Source: Sulfurimonas crateris
GTDB taxonomy: Bacteria; Campylobacterota; Campylobacteria; Campylobacterales; Sulfurimonadaceae
Reading direction: 5' to 3'
NCBI GenBank assembly: GCA_945883795.1
Contig: CAMCYC010000021.1
Span: 1 to 36,052 of the forward strand
DNA length: 36,052 nt
Part shown: positions 4,082 to 36,052 of the stretch, in pieces
Layout: each line of letters starts with the position of its first letter
Numbering within the stretch: the first letter of the stretch is position 1
Program-made: the position numbers and the translations under genes
The notes under the pieces: generated by a model
What the model saw: the letters and a program-made list of their open reading frames with translations, nothing else
Database searches by the model: none
Told to the model about the DNA's origin: nothing

Positions 4082-5335
4082 CTACCAATCTATCGATTGA
4101 ATTTTACCCTCTTTCAAAGGAAAAAGATAACTCTTATTATAACTCAATCTCATCACGCCCAAGGCACTTTGTGATTTGTAAGTTTTTATGAAAAGTATAG
4201 CATCCCCATCACTTGAAAATCTTGGAAACTCATTAACACCAGTCGCTGTCAATCTTCTGACAAAATCCGTTTTTGACGAAATTAAGTGCAAATTAAATGT
4301 ATTATCTGAAAAAGTATTTGAACTTTCTCTCGATTTATAAACTATATATTCTCCATGTGCGCTACAAGCGGAATTACTTTTACCATAATACACCATTTGT
4401 TCAACACTACTACTACCGATTTTTTGTGAAAATACATTTGGATAACCCAATCGATTAGAGATAAATGCTACGGTATCATTATCAATAAATTGTCCATTGA
4501 CATCTATACCACCATAAGCAGTGATTTTTTTAGTCTGTTTGGTAGCAATATTGTAAATGTATACATCTGGTTGCCCCTCTGGAGCCATAGTTAAAAGTAA
4601 CATTTTATCATCACCACTTACATCAGAGCATATAAGCATACCATCAGAAGATAATAAAGTGGTACTCTTTCCAGTGGTTGTATCTAAATATTTTAAAAGG
4701 GGTTTCTCTCCGCCCAATGAGGTATAATAAAATGCTGTTTGGTTTTTATTTGCCCACTTTGGAAATAAATTTAATCCCCCTTTTAGCACTACATGCTGAT
4801 ACTCTAAAGTATAATCAGAAAGGACGATTTCACTTTTTTTTGATGCAACAACTCTTGAAAACAAAACTCTCTTCTTTATCCAATCTATGGAAGGTGCACC
4901 CATAAATTGATTAATATCATACGCTATAGAATGCGCAACGAATACAGAAATATTTTTATTTCTTATCTCATATTTTTTTAGAAAAATATTTTTATCATGG
5001 CTTATAAGTTTAATTTCAACATTAAAACTATCCTTATCTCCTTGTGATAGCTTATATCTAAGAACATAATACATATCTTTGTTAGCAACAATTACACTAT
5101 CATCAAAACTTATTCTATTATAATGTTTATCTACATTAAACAAAGAAAGAACATTTAAATCAGCTACTAATGTTTTAAAAAATGCTAGTCTAAAAGTAGT
5201 ATCATAATCACGAGAAGCATCTTCTAAGGCTATGCTTGGAAGTGTTTCAACTTTTTTAATTACTTCAATTGTTGCATCATTTGCAAACAAAATTGATAAT
5301 AATAACATTAATGAGAAAAATAATTTCAAACTCAT
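4082..5335 (-). CDS. tolB: Tol-Pal system protein TolB
   Basis: TolB is the periplasmic beta-propeller that binds Pal and is displaced by TolA in outer-membrane constriction. The 417-residue protein has an N-terminal signal peptide (about residues 1-19, cleaved near FAND), an alpha/beta N-domain, then repeated propeller blades. Examples are LFPKWANKNQTAFYYTS, CSDVSGDDKMLLLTMAPEG, QPDVYIYNIATKQTKKIT and FPRFSSDGDAILFI. Family length is about 400-430. The start overlaps the tolA stop by 4 bases, which implies translational coupling. Confidence 0.94.
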   Translation of the reverse strand: MSLKLFFSLMLLLSILFANDATIEVIKKVETLPSIALEDASRDYDTTFRLAFFKTLVADLNVLSLFNVDKHYNRISFDDSVIVANKDMYYVLRYKLSQGDKDSFNVEIKLISHDKNIFLKKYEIRNKNISVFVAHSIAYDINQFMGAPSIDWIKKRVLFSRVVASKKSEIVLSDYTLEYQHVVLKGGLNLFPKWANKNQTAFYYTSLGGEKPLLKYLDTTTGKSTTLLSSDGMLICSDVSGDDKMLLLTMAPEGQPDVYIYNIATKQTKKITAYGGIDVNGQFIDNDTVAFISNRLGYPNVFSQKIGSSSVEQMVYYGKSNSACSAHGEYIVYKSRESSNTFSDNTFNLHLISSKTDFVRRLTATGVNEFPRFSSDGDAILFIKTYKSQSALGVMRLSYNKSYLFPLKEGKIQSIDW

Positions 5336-6102
5336 TCCTTTTCTGATGTTAATATAATAATATAAGTGCCAGATTTATTTTCTGGATTTACTGGAAAAAC
5401 AACACTCATTAACCGTTGTTTCATTCTATCACACTCTTCATTTAAATTGCTGTTGCCAGAGTAATTTAAAACTCTAAAATCTAAAACTTTACCAATCATA
5501 CTAAGTTCAATAACAACCTTAACGCTATTGCCCTGAGAATTTTCTGGTGGATTGAAATGAGTATAAACTAGAGCCTGAATTTTAGCTAAATATTCATTAA
5601 CCTCATTGGCTGTAGACCTATGACTTTCTTGTTCATTACTCTGTTTGTCATCTGAATTACTTACTTTTTTTACTATATCACTCCCCTTATTCTCTTGTGA
5701 AATATTTATTTTTTTTTGAATTTCTTGAATTCTTTTATTATCTATATTCTTTTCTGTGATTTTTACTTTTTTAATATCTTTAGTCCAAATATTATTAAAT
5801 AAATTACTAACATCTACTTCAGGAGTTACAGGTGCTTTAACATTTTCCACTATAGTAGGTTCAACTACTTGTTCCTCTTTTTTTATCTCTTTTTGAATTG
5901 GCGTTGTTACACTTTTTTTGGCACTTTTTTGTTCAAGTTTAGGAGTAGTAAGAGATATTGAAATATAGTTATCTTTTGTCAAAGCGAACGCTTTTATTTC
6001 ATCAGAAGAGAACAGCATATAAAAAAAAAGAAATATAAGAAATGTGAAAAATACTAAAGAAACAAATCCACTTAAATAAAATAAAGTTTTGTTCTCACCC
6101 AT
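5332..6102 (-). CDS. tolA: TolA-like energy transducer
   Basis: The 256-residue protein has one N-terminal transmembrane helix (about residues 7-30) and a Lys/Glu-rich, low-complexity periplasmic spacer (about 55-165). It ends in a compact domain (about 165-256) with VKVVIELSMIGKVLDFRVL and SGNSNLNEECDRMKQR, matching the TonB/TolA C-terminal fold. It should couple the TolQ-TolR motor to TolB and Pal. The gene overlaps tolR by 8 bases and tolB by 4. The C-terminus is diverged enough that TonB-like would also describe it; the flanking tolB and pal favour TolA. Confidence 0.85.
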   Translation of the reverse strand: MGENKTLFYLSGFVSLVFFTFLIFLFFYMLFSSDEIKAFALTKDNYISISLTTPKLEQKSAKKSVTTPIQKEIKKEEQVVEPTIVENVKAPVTPEVDVSNLFNNIWTKDIKKVKITEKNIDNKRIQEIQKKINISQENKGSDIVKKVSNSDDKQSNEQESHRSTANEVNEYLAKIQALVYTHFNPPENSQGNSVKVVIELSMIGKVLDFRVLNYSGNSNLNEECDRMKQRLMSVVFPVNPENKSGTYIIILTSEKE

Positions 6103-28950: not shown

Positions 28951-30195
28951 ATGGAAAGAATTCTTATCATAGAAGGGAATAAAACATTAGCAAAACTTAT
29001 AGCAAAAAAAATTACTTCTGAACTCCATTTTGATGTTGATGTTGCTTATAGTGCATCAGAAGCAAAACTTTTTTTGCATAAATACAAATATTTTATTATC
29101 TTAAGTGACTTTAATTTATCCGATTCACCAGATGGAGAGATAATTGATTATCTCATAGAAAAGAAAAATCATGTAATCGTTTTAAGTGCTAACATAGATA
29201 GAGCATGTAGAGAAAGAATGTTGAAAAAACAAATTATAGATTATGTCAATAAAATTGGAGTTGATGATATTAATTACATTGTAAATGTACTTCAAAGATT
29301 GCATAAAAATAAAGAACATAAAATTTTAGTTGTAGATGATTCTATGGTTTTTCGTAAACAGGTACAAGGGATGCTTGAAAACCTCTTTTTTGAAGTTTTG
29401 AGTGTCGCACATGGAGAAGAAGCACTTGCCATATTAAAAACTCATCCTGAAATTTCTCTAGTACTTACAGATTATACTATGCCAGTTATGGATGGACTTG
29501 AACTTACTCGTGAAATTCGAAAAATATACAACAAAAATGACCTCTGTATAATCGCTCTTTCATCTAATACAGAGGAGCAGGAGATTGCTCTATTTTTAAA
29601 ATATGGTGCCAATGATTATATTACAAAACCTTTTTCAAAAGAGGGTTTCTCATGCCGTATTAACAATGCTATTGAAGCCTTAGAAAATATCTACATCATC
29701 ACAAACCATGCCAATAGAGATTTTTTGACAGGACTTTATAATCGTCGCTATTTCTTTAAAACTGTTGAGAGTTATTTTTCTAATGCAATACTCAATAACA
29801 TCAGTTTTGCAATTGCTATCATAAATATTGATAATTTTAAAGAAATAAATAATAAATATGGACACGAAATCGGAGATAAAGTAATTGTAGTTCTCTCTGA
29901 AATTCTCCGTTCAAATATAGATAAAAGTGATATTTTGGCAAGATTTGAAGGGGAAGAATTTGGTCTTTTAGTAAAAGATATTTCAGAACAAAACACAATG
30001 AATATTATAGAAAGATTACGCTCAACAGTCCAAGATTATACACTTCTTACGGAAGATGGTCAAAAAATACGATTTACTATCTCAATTGGTGTTTCTCTAA
30101 CCCATGAAGACAAACTTGAAGATGAGATTAATGCTACAGATTTACTCTTATACAATGCAAAACAAAATGGAAAAAATCAAATAGTTTCAAATTAA
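28951..30195 (+). CDS. Response regulator with two receiver domains and a GGDEF domain (CbrR-like)
   Basis: The 414-residue protein has REC1 (about 1-115), REC2 (about 122-240) and a diguanylate cyclase domain (about 255-414). REC2 keeps D129, D130, phospho-acceptor D174 and K226. REC1 keeps D53 and K101 but has E-G-N where the acidic pair is expected. The GGDEF signature reads EGEEF (333-337), and the upstream product-binding RxxD is DKSD, so product inhibition at that site is unlikely. DFLTGLYNRRYF starts the cyclase domain. The design matches C. jejuni CbrR (bile resistance regulator). It probably makes, or only binds, cyclic-di-GMP. GGAG lies seven bases before the ATG. No partner kinase is adjacent. 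Confidence 0.9.
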   Translation: MERILIIEGNKTLAKLIAKKITSELHFDVDVAYSASEAKLFLHKYKYFIILSDFNLSDSPDGEIIDYLIEKKNHVIVLSANIDRACRERMLKKQIIDYVNKIGVDDINYIVNVLQRLHKNKEHKILVVDDSMVFRKQVQGMLENLFFEVLSVAHGEEALAILKTHPEISLVLTDYTMPVMDGLELTREIRKIYNKNDLCIIALSSNTEEQEIALFLKYGANDYITKPFSKEGFSCRINNAIEALENIYIITNHANRDFLTGLYNRRYFFKTVESYFSNAILNNISFAIAIINIDNFKEINNKYGHEIGDKVIVVLSEILRSNIDKSDILARFEGEEFGLLVKDISEQNTMNIIERLRSTVQDYTLLTEDGQKIRFTISIGVSLTHEDKLEDEINATDLLLYNAKQNGKNQIVSN

Positions 30196-31292
30196 TTTTC
30201 CAAAATAATAATCTCACCAAAAGGGACTATTTGCTCTTTTGGAGTTACCCATTTTACATCATAATTTGGAACTTCTTTTGGGAATATCCCCTCTAAATCT
30301 GTAAAATATAAAAGTAGTTTTGTATCTTTAAGTTCTTGCTCTACAAACTCAAATACAGGTCTAAAATTAGTTGCACCGCCCCCTTTTAAATCTGCCTCCA
30401 ATTTATCTCCACTATAAAAAACTTGATGTGACCTAATTTTATCATCACATGTAAGCAAATCAATCTGGAAATTTTGTACACTTGACATCAAAAATTCAAC
30501 TTCACCTAAAAATTCCCCAAGAAGCTTCTCATTTACAGAGCCAGAACTATCAACTGCAATTACGAGTTGAAATTTATTACTCACAGATGAGGGAAGATAT
30601 ATTCCAAGATATAGGAATTTTTTATTTGGTGGGATAAGTATATAATCGTCTTTATGAAATCTATCAATAGCAACTTTGAGTTCATTACGCCAATCAATTT
30701 TTGAAGACTTTCTAAGATTAAAAAAACGCTCCATGCTTAGAGGAAGTTCCCCTTTTTTCTCTTCTGTTTCTAAAACTGATTTTGTAAACTCTTCAAAAAG
30801 TTGCGCCTCCATGGAACGCTCTTGAGGCATATTTTTATCTTGACTCTCTGTTTGCACATCATCGAAATTATCGGCTTCATATTCAAGCTCATCACGCAAA
30901 ATATCATCTTTTAGTTCTGCATAAATCTCTTCAGCATACATTCCACAAAACCGTTTTCTGTACTGCGTACCTTCGGGCATCTCTAAACCATTTTCAACCA
31001 ACATATCATTGACTGCAAAATCGGTTGCCATCTGCCAAAGCCAACCACTTCTACCATTTTTTCTTTGTTCATGAGAGAGTGACGCATGCATAGCACCATT
31101 TGCTAAAATAAATTCTACTTCATTTAAATTGAGTTTTTCAAAAAAGTCACCGTTATATTCAACCTTTTTTCCGTCACTTTTAAATGAAGCAATATCATTA
31201 TTTTGGATAAGTTCTATTTTGGATGCAACCGTTCCAAAATAGGGGTAATTTACTAATAATCTTGCTTTTGCTTGAGAGATTTTTTGTTGCAT
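30192..31292 (-). CDS. Metallopeptidase-like (DUF2201-type) and VWA-domain protein
   Basis: The 366-residue protein has an N-terminal domain resembling the putative metallopeptidase part of DUF2201 (about 1-130), including LWQMATDFAVNDMLVENGL and LPEG-like elements. An acidic linker follows, then a VWA-like domain (about 235-366) with MIDAS motif DSSGS (248-252) and the later CDD and GGGATNF metal-site elements. The expected HExxH-type zinc site reads NGAMHASLSH (65-74): the first His and the Glu are lost, so it is probably not an active protease. Such proteins pair with MoxR ATPases as substrate-binding partners; the MoxR gene is 4 bases upstream. Its stop interlocks with that of the convergent GGDEF gene. 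Confidence 0.85.
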   Translation of the reverse strand: MQQKISQAKARLLVNYPYFGTVASKIELIQNNDIASFKSDGKKVEYNGDFFEKLNLNEVEFILANGAMHASLSHEQRKNGRSGWLWQMATDFAVNDMLVENGLEMPEGTQYRKRFCGMYAEEIYAELKDDILRDELEYEADNFDDVQTESQDKNMPQERSMEAQLFEEFTKSVLETEEKKGELPLSMERFFNLRKSSKIDWRNELKVAIDRFHKDDYILIPPNKKFLYLGIYLPSSVSNKFQLVIAVDSSGSVNEKLLGEFLGEVEFLMSSVQNFQIDLLTCDDKIRSHQVFYSGDKLEADLKGGGATNFRPVFEFVEQELKDTKLLLYFTDLEGIFPKEVPNYDVKWVTPKEQIVPFGEIIILEN

Positions 31293-31296
31293 GCGT

Positions 31297-32301
31297 TTAT
31301 GCTAAAAGATAAGAAAATTTTCTTACCCATTTTTTAAACATCTCTGAATGTTCCATTCTAAGAGCATGTCTTTGTAAGTCTTGTACAATCATGACAGAAA
31401 ATTCACTTTTTAACTCAAGGCAATATCTCAGGAGATTTTCTAAGTTTTCTTCTGTATTATCTTTGAGTAATGCACTTACAAGTCCAGTGCTAAGTGCGTA
31501 TAAAACATCCACCTCATCGCTATATTCACCCAAGCCTGTTGCAAGAATATTTGGAATATTTGGAAGTTTATGCATCACTTTTGCAAAACTCAAAAACCCA
31601 ACCGCAACCTCTCTCCCAATTGCTCCAGCTAAACAATCTAAAAGTAACTTCTCTTGAATATTACTTTTTAAAATTTTGTCTACATATTCCCAACTTCTAG
31701 GAGTTGCAAAACTTTTGGTATCGCTTTTTGCATCAAAAGTAAATAAATGTTCATTTTTAAAACTAATATACGCAATGATTCGCTCATCTACATTCTTTTG
31801 ATATGCCCAATATCGCCAATCATTTAAATCAACTTCCATCTCAAAATGGACAAATCTATTTGCCAAAGGTGCAGGCATACGGTAAGTGACACCTCTATCG
31901 CCTTCACGGTTTCCAGCAGCAATAATTGCCCATCCCAAAGGAAGTTCATACTCTCCCACTTTTCTATCCAAAATTAGCTGATACGCTGATGCTTGGACTG
32001 AAGGTGGTGCAGAATTAAGCTCGTCTAAAAATAAAATTCCCTCACCCTCTTTTGGCAAAAATGCGGGTGGCGCCCAAAGTGCAGTATGTGATTCTTTATC
32101 ATAAAAAGGTATCCCTTTTAAATCGGTTGGGTCCATGAGGGCTAGTCGCAAATCTATAAAGCCTATTGCTTTTTCTTGTGCAATTTGTTTAACTATTGAT
32201 GATTTTCCAATCCCTGGCGCACCCCAAAGAAAAGTTGGTACTTTTTGTTCTATCAATAAGGAGATTGTGCTAATAAGTTGTGAAGCCTTCATGATTGCCA
32301 C
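31297..32301 (-). CDS. MoxR-family AAA ATPase
   Basis: The 334-residue AAA+ ATPase has Walker A GAPGIGKS (27-34), Walker B GILFLDE (88-94), sensor 1 IIAAGNRE (126-133) and the ANRF arginine-finger region (147-150). It belongs to the MoxR branch, whose members work with VWA-domain proteins as chaperones for metal insertion or complex maturation. It overlaps the upstream repeat protein gene by 13 bases and is 4 bases from the VWA gene, so three products are translationally coupled. The client is unknown. Confidence 0.93.
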   Translation of the reverse strand: MAIMKASQLISTISLLIEQKVPTFLWGAPGIGKSSIVKQIAQEKAIGFIDLRLALMDPTDLKGIPFYDKESHTALWAPPAFLPKEGEGILFLDELNSAPPSVQASAYQLILDRKVGEYELPLGWAIIAAGNREGDRGVTYRMPAPLANRFVHFEMEVDLNDWRYWAYQKNVDERIIAYISFKNEHLFTFDAKSDTKSFATPRSWEYVDKILKSNIQEKLLLDCLAGAIGREVAVGFLSFAKVMHKLPNIPNILATGLGEYSDEVDVLYALSTGLVSALLKDNTEENLENLLRYCLELKSEFSVMIVQDLQRHALRMEHSEMFKKWVRKFSYLLA

Positions 32302-33641
32302 CCTATATTTTGAGTTTGAATATGTTTCCCAAAAGCAGAATTTTCTTTTACCGCTCGCTCAAATCGGCTGTCTAATTGAAGTTGATACAAAATATCCATA
32401 GGAGTATTTGAATTTTTAGCAAGTCCTAAGAGTATCTCGCCATCTTCACTTAAAGATAAATTTTCTAAAATATCACTAGGGGTGTTTTCATTACATGCCA
32501 AAGAGATGTCGTATTTATGATTTTTGTGTGCTTCTCTTAATTGTTGTTCTGGAACTGCTGAATTTTTATAAAGTTTCAAATTAAGTTTTTCATCTTTTTT
32601 AGCAAAAAGTTTTTCAAATATTTTTTTATCAATATATTTATTGGTTGCTAATGCACTCAAAATAATGAGTTCGTCTGTATCAACTAACACCTCTTGCATC
32701 TCGTAACTAATAGTATTATTCATAGCCAATTCAACACAAGAATCTTCATAAAGAAGTTGAAATATTGTCTCATCAAGATTGATATAAGTTGCCATGTTTT
32801 TTGCATATTCTTTATTTTTCATTAAAATTATGGCAAGTTTTCTATCTAATTGAAGGTTGTAAGAAAGTGCGCTTAAAACATCTTCATCATGCGTTTGAAA
32901 AAGTTGCATCTGCATTACTTCATCGCAATCTTCTCGCATCGCAATAAGCGTTCTAATATAAGAGTTTGCATTTTTGATGAGCATGTTCAGCACTTTTTTT
33001 GATGTGGCAAGATGGGTTGCGATAGTGGTTATCATTTTGTAATTACTATCTTGTATATTACTTTTAAAACTTTTTTGTAAAGGCTCAAGCAAAGAAATCG
33101 TTTCTATAATATTTTCATCTATTGTTTGAATCAGCAGATGCAAAAAACCCCTGCTTGAATACTGCACATTATGATTTCGCTCAATATTTTTGTAAAATCT
33201 GCTAATAAAAGCAGCACTTACATCACGATTATCGTCATTTTCAAAAAAATCTTCCCCTTTCCAATTGTATATTTTTATGAGTTTTAAAAAGAGTGTATCA
33301 GTTATCATGCTGTTTTGAATATACCCCTTGAGTCGCTCTTTGTCATGGCTAAGTTTAAGGCTCATCAAAAGTGTATCTTCATCTAAGGAGTTTGATAAAG
33401 CTTTATCAAATAAATCAATCTCTATAAATTTGGCTTTTTTTTCTTCATAAAGTTTGCTACTTTCGTTTACTTCATAAGGAGTCATAAGTCGTCCATCTAT
33501 AATCAAGACAACATCTTTTGAATATTCTTTTACGATATTTATTCCAAGTAATTGCATTTGAAGTATAAACTCATCATCCACAAATGCTCTACTTTTTCCA
33601 AACAATAATATTGTTTTATTTTTTAACTCTTTTAAATTCAT
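32289..33641 (-). CDS. BRCT-like plus LRV-type helical repeat protein, function unknown
   Basis: I do not recognise a named family for the whole 450-residue protein. Residues 8-82 (KTILLFGKSRAF..., LLGINIVKEYSKDVVLIID, then FIEIDLFDKAL) have the strand-helix pattern of a BRCT-like domain. The rest is helical. The last part has units such as LACNENTPSDILENLSLSED and LAKNSNTPMDILYQLQLD, the pattern of leucine-rich-variant (LRV) repeats, with looser copies from about residue 215 on. No signal peptide or membrane helix is visible. It lies between a TonB receptor (17 bases upstream) and moxR (overlap 13 bases). It could act as an adaptor selecting clients for the MoxR/VWA pair (inference). Confidence 0.7.
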   Translation of the reverse strand: MNLKELKNKTILLFGKSRAFVDDEFILQMQLLGINIVKEYSKDVVLIIDGRLMTPYEVNESSKLYEEKKAKFIEIDLFDKALSNSLDEDTLLMSLKLSHDKERLKGYIQNSMITDTLFLKLIKIYNWKGEDFFENDDNRDVSAAFISRFYKNIERNHNVQYSSRGFLHLLIQTIDENIIETISLLEPLQKSFKSNIQDSNYKMITTIATHLATSKKVLNMLIKNANSYIRTLIAMREDCDEVMQMQLFQTHDEDVLSALSYNLQLDRKLAIILMKNKEYAKNMATYINLDETIFQLLYEDSCVELAMNNTISYEMQEVLVDTDELIILSALATNKYIDKKIFEKLFAKKDEKLNLKLYKNSAVPEQQLREAHKNHKYDISLACNENTPSDILENLSLSEDGEILLGLAKNSNTPMDILYQLQLDSRFERAVKENSAFGKHIQTQNIGWQS

Positions 33642-33658
33642 GGTATTCCTATTTTGTT

Positions 33659-35764
33659 TTAAAACCTGTAAGTATAATTAAGAAGATAGTTTCTTCCTTC
33701 TCGTTTTATCCCTTTATCCATGGCATAATAATAGCTTGGTTGATACACATCTACATCAAATAAATTTTTGACAGTACCTCTAATTTCACTAAAACTTGAC
33801 AATCTATAAGTGATTGTTTCATCAAAAATATGCACTGGGGGTGCTGACTCTGTATCAACCCACTCTAATTCTGTTGGCGTTATTTTTGAATAATAGTGCC
33901 AAGTTGTACCAAATGAGAATTTATTTGTTGGAGTATAAACATACATCGCTTTTAACATCAGTTTTGAAATATCTGGCATAGATACTATCTCTGAATTGGA
34001 ATATTCTTCAGGTGGAATTTCATAATCTGTTTCAAGATAAGTTCCATTCAGATAAAAATTATGTTCTAATTGTGTACGAAAAGAGTATTCAAACTCTAGA
34101 CCCTTGCTTTCTCGACCTTTATAATTTTTGTATCCAACGATTGTAGCCTCGTACTCTTCTAAATCTATAACATTCTTTAGTTGTGAATAAAATAGATTTA
34201 AAGATAATTTATTATTAAAATCTGGTGAATAAATTATCACTGCTTCATAAGTATTTGTCTCTTCTGGTTTCAAATTTTCATCTCCAGCACGAAGGTTGAT
34301 ATGTCCGTTTGCGTAAGCTTCTATAAAAGTTGGCGCACGAAATGCTGAACCATACAAAAATTTTAAAACAGTCTTATCGTTTGCTCTATGCACAACGCCA
34401 ACTCTTTTACTGAACTTAGCACCAAAATCTGAATAATCATCAATCCGCAATCCTAAAATAAGGTCAGTAGCTGAACTTATAGAGATTAAATCTTGAAGAT
34501 ATCCATAAGCAATTGTTCGACTTAAATTGTCTTTTAAAAGCTGTGTTGTTGGATTAAGCCAAAATGCTGGTTCTTTATTGGAATTATGTCTAAAATTATT
34601 TAAGTTTGGATGATTTATAATAGTGTCATAGTTTTGTGTAATAGCGTTTTCAACACTATTATAATAATCATCTTGTTCTACTTTTACATAACGAATTCCA
34701 GTACCTATTAAAATATCATTTGAATCTATTTCAGGAAGAGTCAAAATAGTCTCAAATTCAAAATTTTGTTCTCCTGTGTTTTCTTGTGATGTAAAACCAT
34801 CTTCTGTAACGACATCTACAACAGAAAATCTATTCGACATCTCCCCAATCCTATCAATATTTGCACCAATATTTGATTCTCTATGTGAAAAGTTCGCTTT
34901 TGTTTCAAGCTTGTAATCTTCAAAATTTGCAAGATAAGAAGCCTGTGCAAAAAAGTATAAGTTTTTATGCTCTTTAGGTTGCGTTAGAATCGGATCCATT
35001 TCACCCTCAAAACTATAAAAGTTACCATAAGTATTTTGTTTCAATCGGGTTAAAAATTCAAAATCACCATGTGTTGCCTTAAATCCAAGAGAGAGGTCTC
35101 GCATCGTTTCATCTGTTTTTTGTTCATAATTTGGAACATTAAGTTTTTTATCATTTTGCTGATAATAGCCACTTGCAAAAATATTCCAATTATCAGTAGT
35201 TGTATAAACATTTGTCCCTGCAACGCCATATTTATAACTTCCTGTACTAAAAAAAACCTGATTTTCTTTTTTTGAATCACCAAGTTTTGTGATAATATTG
35301 ACAACTCCATAAAATGCTCCAGCACCATAAACCGTAGAACTCGGTCCACGAAGAACCTCAATTTTATCTACCAACTGCATAGGAAAATCCATATAGTAGT
35401 TGCTTGTTCCAGAGATTTCATTATTTATCGCAACACCATCAATGAGTATTTTTATCTTATCCGCAAAATAAGAATTTGGGGTTTTTAATCCCCTAAAAGT
35501 TGTCATGGTATAACCCATAGGGCTTATCTGAACCTGAATTCCAGGTAACATTCCAAGAGCTTCACCGATATTTACAATACCTGCATCGACATATGTTTGT
35601 GCATCTATAATAGTAACAACTGCAGGTAAATAATCTACATTTAAAGATTTTTTTGTTGCTATCTTACTTACATCATTTAAAAGTGATTCAAAATCATCTA
35701 CCTCTTCTGCACTGACTACACTCAATATTGACAAAATAACAACACTATAAACAATCTTTTTCAT
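33659..35764 (-). CDS. TonB-dependent outer-membrane receptor
   Basis: The 701-residue protein has a signal peptide (about 1-19, cleaved near VSAEE), a plug domain (about 45-160) with VVTIIDAQTYVDAGIVNIGEAL, MLPGIQVQ, KILIDGV and VEVLRGPSS-like KIEVLRGPSSTVYGAGAFYGVVNIITK, and a 22-strand barrel ending in LLNYTYRF with terminal Phe. Shared barrel motifs include YGSAFRAPTFIEAYANG and NLKPEETNTYEA. It should import a large ligand such as a metal chelate, cobalamin or heme. FRAP is present but NPDL is replaced by GDENL, so heme cannot be claimed. It heads the set that includes the repeat protein, MoxR and VWA genes. Confidence 0.92.
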   Translation of the reverse strand: MKKIVYSVVILSILSVVSAEEVDDFESLLNDVSKIATKKSLNVDYLPAVVTIIDAQTYVDAGIVNIGEALGMLPGIQVQISPMGYTMTTFRGLKTPNSYFADKIKILIDGVAINNEISGTSNYYMDFPMQLVDKIEVLRGPSSTVYGAGAFYGVVNIITKLGDSKKENQVFFSTGSYKYGVAGTNVYTTTDNWNIFASGYYQQNDKKLNVPNYEQKTDETMRDLSLGFKATHGDFEFLTRLKQNTYGNFYSFEGEMDPILTQPKEHKNLYFFAQASYLANFEDYKLETKANFSHRESNIGANIDRIGEMSNRFSVVDVVTEDGFTSQENTGEQNFEFETILTLPEIDSNDILIGTGIRYVKVEQDDYYNSVENAITQNYDTIINHPNLNNFRHNSNKEPAFWLNPTTQLLKDNLSRTIAYGYLQDLISISSATDLILGLRIDDYSDFGAKFSKRVGVVHRANDKTVLKFLYGSAFRAPTFIEAYANGHINLRAGDENLKPEETNTYEAVIIYSPDFNNKLSLNLFYSQLKNVIDLEEYEATIVGYKNYKGRESKGLEFEYSFRTQLEHNFYLNGTYLETDYEIPPEEYSNSEIVSMPDISKLMLKAMYVYTPTNKFSFGTTWHYYSKITPTELEWVDTESAPPVHIFDETITYRLSSFSEIRGTVKNLFDVDVYQPSYYYAMDKGIKREGRNYLLNYTYRF

Positions 35765-35831
35765 CTGCTAACTATCCAAAATGTAAAATTTTAAGTAAAC
35801 AAGTAATACACTGCAATGAGTACTTGAAAAA

Positions 35832-35840
35832 AGTATATCA
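35832..35840 (-). promoter_or_regulatory. Extended -10 promoter of the TonB receptor operon, next to a small palindrome
   Basis: The minus strand reads TGATATACT, a TGn extended -10, predicting a start near 35825 and a leader of about 60 bases. TACTT-GAAAA-AAGTA (35821-35835) is an inverted repeat overlapping the box and the start site. A possible plus-strand -10 (TATCAT, 35836-35841) for the divergent gene overlaps too. An iron- or metal-responsive repressor would be a natural candidate, but the palindrome is not a recognisable Fur box. Confidence 0.4.
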
Positions 35841-35871
35841 TAAATTGTTTAGGGTTGAAAAATTATTTAAC

Positions 35872-36052
35872 ATGAAAAAATTTGGTCTTGAAGCAAAAGT
35901 AGTAATTTCAGTTATGTTAGTAGCACTATTTATCTCAATAGTTGAGCGATATGAGATGAGTGCTAATATTATAAAACAATTTAGAGCGTCAGAGAAATCA
36001 AGAACAACGCTTCTGGTTAATACTATTTCTCCTATTATCTCACTTAATATTT
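35872..36052 (+). CDS. N-terminus of a membrane-anchored protein, cut by the window edge
   Basis: The frame from ATG 35872 stays open for 60 codons to the window end. It starts MKKFGLEAKVVISVMLVALFISIVERYEM: a short basic N-terminus and one hydrophobic helix (about 8-24), followed by a region likely to be periplasmic (QFRASEKSRTTLLVNTISPIISLNI). This is the usual N-terminus of a sensor such as a histidine kinase, chemoreceptor or GGDEF/EAL protein, but no signalling domain is within the window. No good Shine-Dalgarno precedes the ATG, so the start is provisional. It is divergent from the TonB receptor. Confidence 0.55.
   Translation, partial: MKKFGLEAKVVISVMLVALFISIVERYEMSANIIKQFRASEKSRTTLLVNTISPIISLNI

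Follow-up and report, generated by a model that had tools for sequence, protein, structure and literature searches.

How MoxR AAA+ ATPases and their von Willebrand factor A (VWA) partners find their clients is mostly unknown, although such pairs are widespread. A 36,052-nt stretch of Sulfurimonas crateris DNA (contig CAMCYC010000021.1 of assembly GCA_945883795.1; hereafter the window) bears on this question, because four of its open reading frames (ORFs) follow one another on the minus strand in the order (5' to 3') TonB-dependent receptor, 450-amino-acid (aa) protein, MoxR-type ATPase, and DUF2201-VWA protein (Table 1). A preliminary description of the window had read all four as one set, in which the receptor would take up a metal or cofactor and the other three proteins would insert it. 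Which of these genes belong together, and what might they do? We found that the 450-aa protein (here named LRV/BRCT after its predicted domains), the MoxR ATPase, and the DUF2201-VWA protein (together, the trio) are present and lost as a set, and we consider it fairly probable that they constitute one cytoplasmic MoxR-VWA remodeling machine with a BRCT-LRV adaptor. A trio in which a repeat protein is inherited and lost alongside the pair offers a concrete test case for adaptor-based targeting.

Conservation and joint loss of the trio

The compared ORFs were called mechanically, many of the loci derive from metagenome-assembled genomes (MAGs), and locus counts were made after duplicate loci had been removed. 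Of 125 distinct loci, 115 have a MoxR gene that begins at most 150 bases downstream of LRV, and a VWA gene lies at most 200 bases from MoxR in 81 of 113. Trio linkage is present in three families of the order (f1, f4, and f6), and the gene order is far from chance. A contig scan with the single LRV protein gave no match, and an alignment-based scan recovered the relatives. The LRV protein occurs in 82 of the 101 genomes of the family (a few of these matches are remnants), and its profile matched 37 of 249 genomes of the phylum, with full-length matches in f1, f4, f6, and f7. Among the named relatives, Sulfurimonas, Sulfuricurvum, and other MAGs from the Sulfurimonadaceae or Helicobacteraceae predominate.

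Absence is equally coordinated. A full-length LRV gene is missing from 14 genomes. Of these, 10 have neither a MoxR nor a DUF2201-VWA match genome-wide (G002, G011, G019, G031, G034, G038, G048, G050, G077, and G088), and three (G017, G076, and G084) have only LRV-less MoxR-VWA pairs, in or near nif surroundings. Decayed LRV remnants persist in three genomes that have no MoxR or VWA match (G048, G077 [L110:7939-8538], and G088), and these remnants point to loss. In six further genomes (G137, G334, G345, G330, G343, and G358), all three genes are present yet unlinked. There is thus good evidence, from joint presence and joint loss that extend to unlinked genes, that LRV/BRCT, MoxR, and DUF2201-VWA share one function; to this extent, the dedicated set proposed in the preliminary description is upheld by conserved order, co-presence, and co-loss.

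Three observations concern the arrangement of these genes. The MoxR/VWA junction is a recurrent insertion site, at which differing genes of 0.2 to 6 kb occur in about one-fifth of the loci (L032, L035, L037, L045, L051, L074, L083, L157, L175, and others). In G137, a trio-type MoxR-VWA pair (L095:3747-8941) is divergent from a gene for a NapA-like molybdopterin reductase, with the LRV gene about 65 kb away. Loci L108 and L109 (G105 and G108) carry a very divergent MoxR-DUF2201-like pair (VWA protein of about 520 to 530 aa), and this pair is distinct from both the trio and the nif types.

Predicted components of the proposed machine

The window ATPase scores above the Pfam cutoffs of AAA_3 (31.1 bits; cutoff, 27) and AAA_5 (25.9 bits; cutoff, 22), and its best PDB sequence match is Midasin. 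The alignment contains invariant Walker A (GxxGxGK), Walker B (DE), sensor, and arginine residues (N128, R146, and R199 among the last groups). With an AAA_3/AAA_5-type domain and a VWA gene in proximity, the protein belongs by sequence to the MoxR AAA+ ATPases.

The VWA protein matches DUF2201_N (E = 7e-28; 98.4 bits) and DUF2201 (E = 7e-21; 75.1 bits), both above cutoff, and VWA fold matches were found. Its metal ion-dependent adhesion site (MIDAS) is intact: D248, S250, S252, and T308 are invariant and D283 is near-invariant in the alignment. The zincin motif, in contrast, reads N-x-x-M-H in place of H-E-x-x-H, so that the first His and the Glu are gone and the later two His residues are kept, which bears out the "degenerate protease" label of the preliminary description. 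The Glu is gone too in NifQ-type paralogues (HTLLH). A weak profile match (E = 0.009) to MJ1213, a small metallopeptidase, is in keeping with decay of a peptidase domain.

For the 450-aa protein, Pfam, NCBIfam, and PADLOC gave no convincing match; the Pfam LRV and Pfam BRCT models were both without a match. Its AlphaFold (AF2) model, built from a 30-sequence alignment, has a mean predicted local distance difference test (pLDDT) score of 92.9 and shows a small alpha/beta domain that precedes a series of alpha repeats. With Foldseek, the N-terminal domain matched the BRCT domain of RFC1 (2ebu; probability, 1.00; root mean square deviation, 2.7 over 69 columns; E = 0.03) and the repeat region matched the Azotobacter LRV structure 1lrv (probability, 1.00), the E values of both the LRV and the BRCT matches being only 0.02 to 0.03. 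More divergent family members match Pfam LRV_2, above cutoff in L096. The model thus predicts a BRCT fold and LRV-type alpha repeats. Two stretches are conserved across the 30-member alignment, LxGKxRAF in the BRCT domain and NPAFGxHIQxxNIGW in the C-terminal tail, and these are the first candidate contact sites.

MoxR-VWA pairs have been described as chaperone-like maturation or remodeling factors (PMC3893208, PMC7159879), and it is by analogy with such pairs that we infer complex formation, remodeling activity, and an adaptor role for the trio. In the proposed mechanism, MoxR would form an AAA+ ring and hydrolyze ATP; the VWA protein would use its MIDAS, together with the catalytically dead zincin domain, to couple the ring to the substrate without cleaving it; and the BRCT domain and LRV superhelix would act as a dedicated adaptor that recognizes the client. 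The adaptor role is our best guess for the LRV/BRCT protein.

Several points weigh against the proposed machine. With Foldseek, the LRV/BRCT model had no match in the PDB at an E value of 0.001 or lower, and the DUF2201 model is weak overall (pLDDT, 79; predicted template modeling score, 0.48). The MoxR-VWA junction carries an insertion in 21 of 113 loci, and 11 of 113 have no nearby VWA gene in the locus sequence compared. G069, another of the 14 genomes that lack a full-length LRV gene, retains an orphan VWA gene only, and the MoxR match in G306 is a fragment of 149 codons. DNA and phosphopeptides are also possible ligands of BRCT domains, and "adaptor" is for this reason a guess.

The repeated losses of the trio indicate that its client is nonessential or conditional. 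The presence or absence of nifH, cytochrome cd1, and NosZ does not track the trio, and the genome of the window has the trio and none of these three; the client is thus not exclusively nitrogenase, cd1-type nitrite reductase, or NosZ. A widely present complex would fit, by analogy with RavA-ViaA of Escherichia coli, for which an interaction with NADH:ubiquinone oxidoreductase I has been reported (PMC3893208) and one with fumarate reductase is cited in PMC7159879.

Genes beside the trio

An alternative is that the trio acts in DNA metabolism together with two frequent neighbors, its BRCT domain binding DNA or a repair partner. A PIF1-like helicase gene lies on the same strand at most 4 kb from the VWA gene in 62 of 83 loci (with a gap of at most 30 bases in 18), an ExoX-like exonuclease gene lies at most 3 kb upstream in 43 of 136, the helicase and exonuclease domains were confirmed, and the nearest BRCT fold is that of RFC1. 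However, the helicase is kept in 13 of the 14 trio-less genomes and was not found in the genome of the window, where the trio is present; in the f4 and f6 loci examined, both genes are absent from the surroundings of the trio. The adjacency therefore reads as inherited gene order, i.e., family-level synteny; we rejected the two enzymes as functional partners and regard a role in DNA metabolism as unlikely.

Neighborhood counts separate the TonB receptor from the trio. In 118 distinct loci, the sequence extends 2.5 kb or more upstream of the LRV gene; the receptor adjoins that gene in only three of them (L111, L127, and L031, which equals L114); the window and the incomplete L112 add two. Elsewhere, the upstream neighbor is often nhaA (divergent) or the ExoX-like exonuclease gene. 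In each of L111, L127, and L031, a YfiR/HmsC-like (DUF4154) gene and a gene for a membrane diguanylate cyclase (GGDEF) lie divergent from the receptor, and in L111 and L031 this receptor-YfiR-diguanylate cyclase cassette sits between nhaA and the trio. The window retains the beginning of such a cassette: on its plus strand, starting at 35872, are the first 60 codons of the sensor gene found beside the receptor in L111, with 107 bases between the two starts; in L111, the matching gene (5071-5679) is followed by the YfiR/HmsC-like and GGDEF genes. Given the adjacency in 3 of 118 loci and the divergent cassette, the receptor appears to belong to a separate signaling cassette outside the trio. The cassette is a possible outer-membrane-to-cyclic di-GMP (c-di-GMP) signaling unit; YfiR, in the YfiBNR system, exerts periplasmic control of c-di-GMP (PMC4655355). 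The cassette spans L111:3250-7927, L127:3780-7925, L031:2641-6701, and 33659-36052 of the window.

These findings decide against the uptake-plus-insertion pathway. Its appeal lay in the shared strand and 17-base spacing of the receptor in the window, and the receptor-trio arrangement is repeated in four more genomes (L111, L112, L127, and L031 = L114). Set against this are the rarity of the adjacency, the c-di-GMP cassette beside the receptor, with an L111-type sensor gene beginning in the window itself, and the receptor sequence, for which no NCBIfam equivalog, and hence no substrate-specific receptor family, reached its cutoff. In nearly all relatives, the trio is unaccompanied by the receptor, the outcome that the preliminary description had named as refuting its four-gene unit; the four-gene pathway as a conserved unit is already refuted, and a single pathway of receptor, adaptor, MoxR, and VWA for metal or cofactor uptake and insertion is extremely improbable. 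The preliminary description had itself allowed that the receptor could be an accidental neighbor. The 17-base gap may permit receptor-trio read-through in this strain.

Comparison with described MoxR-VWA systems

E. coli RavA/ViaA and YehL/M/P were considered as homologues and rejected, as they showed no useful sequence similarity. The trio resembles RavA-ViaA in having a MoxR AAA+ and a VWA partner in adjacent genes, with chaperone-like remodeling as the working model. It differs in that the window proteins lack the LARA, RavA_C, and AAA_lid_8 domains, all present in the E. coli comparison, the VWA protein is DUF2201 rather than VWA_CoxE, and there is an extra BRCT-LRV protein. YehL-YehM-YehP likewise cluster a MoxR, a third protein, and a VWA protein, whereas YehM is DUF5682, the VWA protein is of the CoxE type, and YehL has only AAA_5. 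The NorQ/NorD, CbbQ/CbbO, and CoxD/CoxE systems share the working model of an ATPase ring and a VWA cofactor that mature one client complex. In contrast to these, the window proteins have a decayed zincin domain and a BRCT-LRV partner and no CoxE Pfam match, and CbbQ_C, which marks the CGN subfamily (CbbQ/GvpN/NorQ), is not among the window's Pfam matches up to E = 1. By sequence, the trio is of the MoxR-VWA kind and appears to stand apart from the RavA, CGN, and YehL subfamilies, the three published subfamilies that the comparison covered.

A core MoxR and VWA pair with a third component is also the composition of the MoxR-vWA ternary conflict systems of Kaur et al. 2020 (PMC7159879), and insertions are common at the MoxR-VWA junction; both points speak for a biological-conflict (anti-phage) role of the trio. 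Yet the third component here is not VMAP, iSTAND, FtsH, or a beta-propeller, and it matches no ternary system described in that study. No PADLOC family was convincingly matched (best E, about 0.006), and the bpMoxR match (E = 0.027) is under its cutoff. No variable effector domains were seen, and the synteny is conserved family-wide rather than confined to mobile islands. We thus judge a conflict system to be very unlikely.

LRV-less pairs in nif islands

MoxR-DUF2201 pairs without an LRV gene occur in nif islands (L091:4253-8922 [contig G000:C31 of the window's genome], L099, L100, L101, L102, L205, L207, and L208). Their ATPase and DUF2201 families are the same as those of the trio, whereas no LRV/BRCT gene lies beside either of two pair types in the loci examined. 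In one type, found on another contig of the window's genome, the order is ferredoxin, flavodiiron-like, NifQ, MoxR, VWA, and a 236-aa protein without a Pfam match, and the order from the flavodiiron-like gene onward is repeated in L102 and L205. The second type lies near NifK (L101, L207, and L208). Extra DUF2201 copies were present in 33 of 41 genomes with nifH versus 5 of 39 without (Fisher P = 6e-10, not corrected for phylogeny); these counts are a hand tally over 80 genomes, for which a few copies in fragmented genomes were sorted by eye into trio or extra. Phylogenetically, the NifK-type (N2) VWA proteins group with a trio VWA protein of family f4 (support, 100/100), in trees of 27 to 29 sequences whose deep support is weak. 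As the nif-island pairs lack the LRV gene and the NifK-type VWA proteins branch with a trio VWA protein of f4, the same ATPase-VWA chassis occurs with and without a BRCT-LRV partner. Our literature search (MoxR with DUF2201 or with nif clusters) found no report of LRV-less pairs in nif islands, and papers on MoxR, nitrogenase, and nifH looked unrelated from their titles and abstracts.

These paralogues raise the question of whether the trio itself is a nitrogen-fixation accessory. Besides the adjacency of the paralogous pairs to NifK and NifQ and the N2-f4 grouping, LRV presence is weakly associated with nifH (P = 0.019), in G306 about 3 kb separate the LRV gene from a NifK-like one, and lrv is among the nif-associated genes of other organisms (PMC10521693). 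The LRV gene is nevertheless present in 28 of 39 nifH-negative genomes, G017, G076, and G084 have nifH without an LRV gene, and in the loci examined, G306 excepted, the trio lies outside nif islands. We regard this role for the trio as quite improbable. Tentatively, the BRCT-LRV-adapted MoxR-VWA system with its dead-protease cofactor and the LRV-less pairs might be related through the swap or loss of an adaptor that re-targets the machine, the latter pairs having been recruited to nif islands, where they would help to assemble or protect nitrogenase. Through the nif-island pairs, a direct test of one client is within reach in cultured strains of Sulfurimonas or Sulfuricurvum.

The window's genome (a 99.85% complete assembly) contains the NifQ-MoxR-VWA cassette and no nifH match at E <= 1e-40; the cassette there may be left over from a nif island that was lost, or the assembly may have a gap.

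Layout of the locus

All four minus-strand ORFs are present where the preliminary description had placed them, and its domain labels (receptor, MoxR, VWA, and, by eye, LRV/BRCT-like) hold by Pfam and structure modeling. Its spacings of 17 bases (receptor/450-aa gene) and 4 bases (MoxR/VWA) are also correct, whereas that of -13 bases applies only if MoxR begins at a GTG at 32301. The ATG at 32292, which gives a 4-base ATGA overlap with the stop of the 450-aa gene, is the more likely start, because the MoxR proteins of relatives begin with MKAS and AGGG lies 8 bases before this ATG; the GTG is an alternative.

Table 1. Features of the trio and its surroundings, in window coordinates
Feature	Position	Strand	Basis
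450-aa BRCT + LRV-repeat protein, proposed client adaptor	32289..33641	-	ORF, AF2 model, Foldseek, 30-member alignment
BRCT-like N-terminal domain, residues 1-84, conserved LxGKxRAF	33390..33641	-	Model secondary structure, Foldseek 2ebu, conserved columns
MoxR-type AAA+ ATPase, 331 aa	31297..32292	-	Pfam AAA_3/AAA_5, invariant motifs, start from sequence and relatives
DUF2201_N (decayed zincin) + DUF2201 VWA protein, 366 aa, putative MoxR cofactor	30192..31292	-	Pfam PF13203 and PF09967, weak MJ1213 match, VWA fold matches
Decayed metalloprotease motif NGAMHASLSH, residues 65-74	31071..31100	-	Alignment
Intact MIDAS DxSxS, residues 248-252	30537..30551	-	Alignment
TonB-dependent receptor, 701 aa, neighbor outside the trio	33659..35764	-	Pfam Plug and barrel
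Membrane sensor gene, first 60 codons, cut by contig end	35872..36052	+	Matches gene at L111:5071-5679
REC-REC-GGDEF gene, convergent, outside the trio	28951..30195	+	ORF, Pfam, neighborhoods

A scan of the locus for promoter and terminator consensus sequences gave matches near the shuffled expectation. The end of the REC-REC-GGDEF gene overlaps that of the VWA gene by 4 bases, and this neighbor is conserved across the genus.

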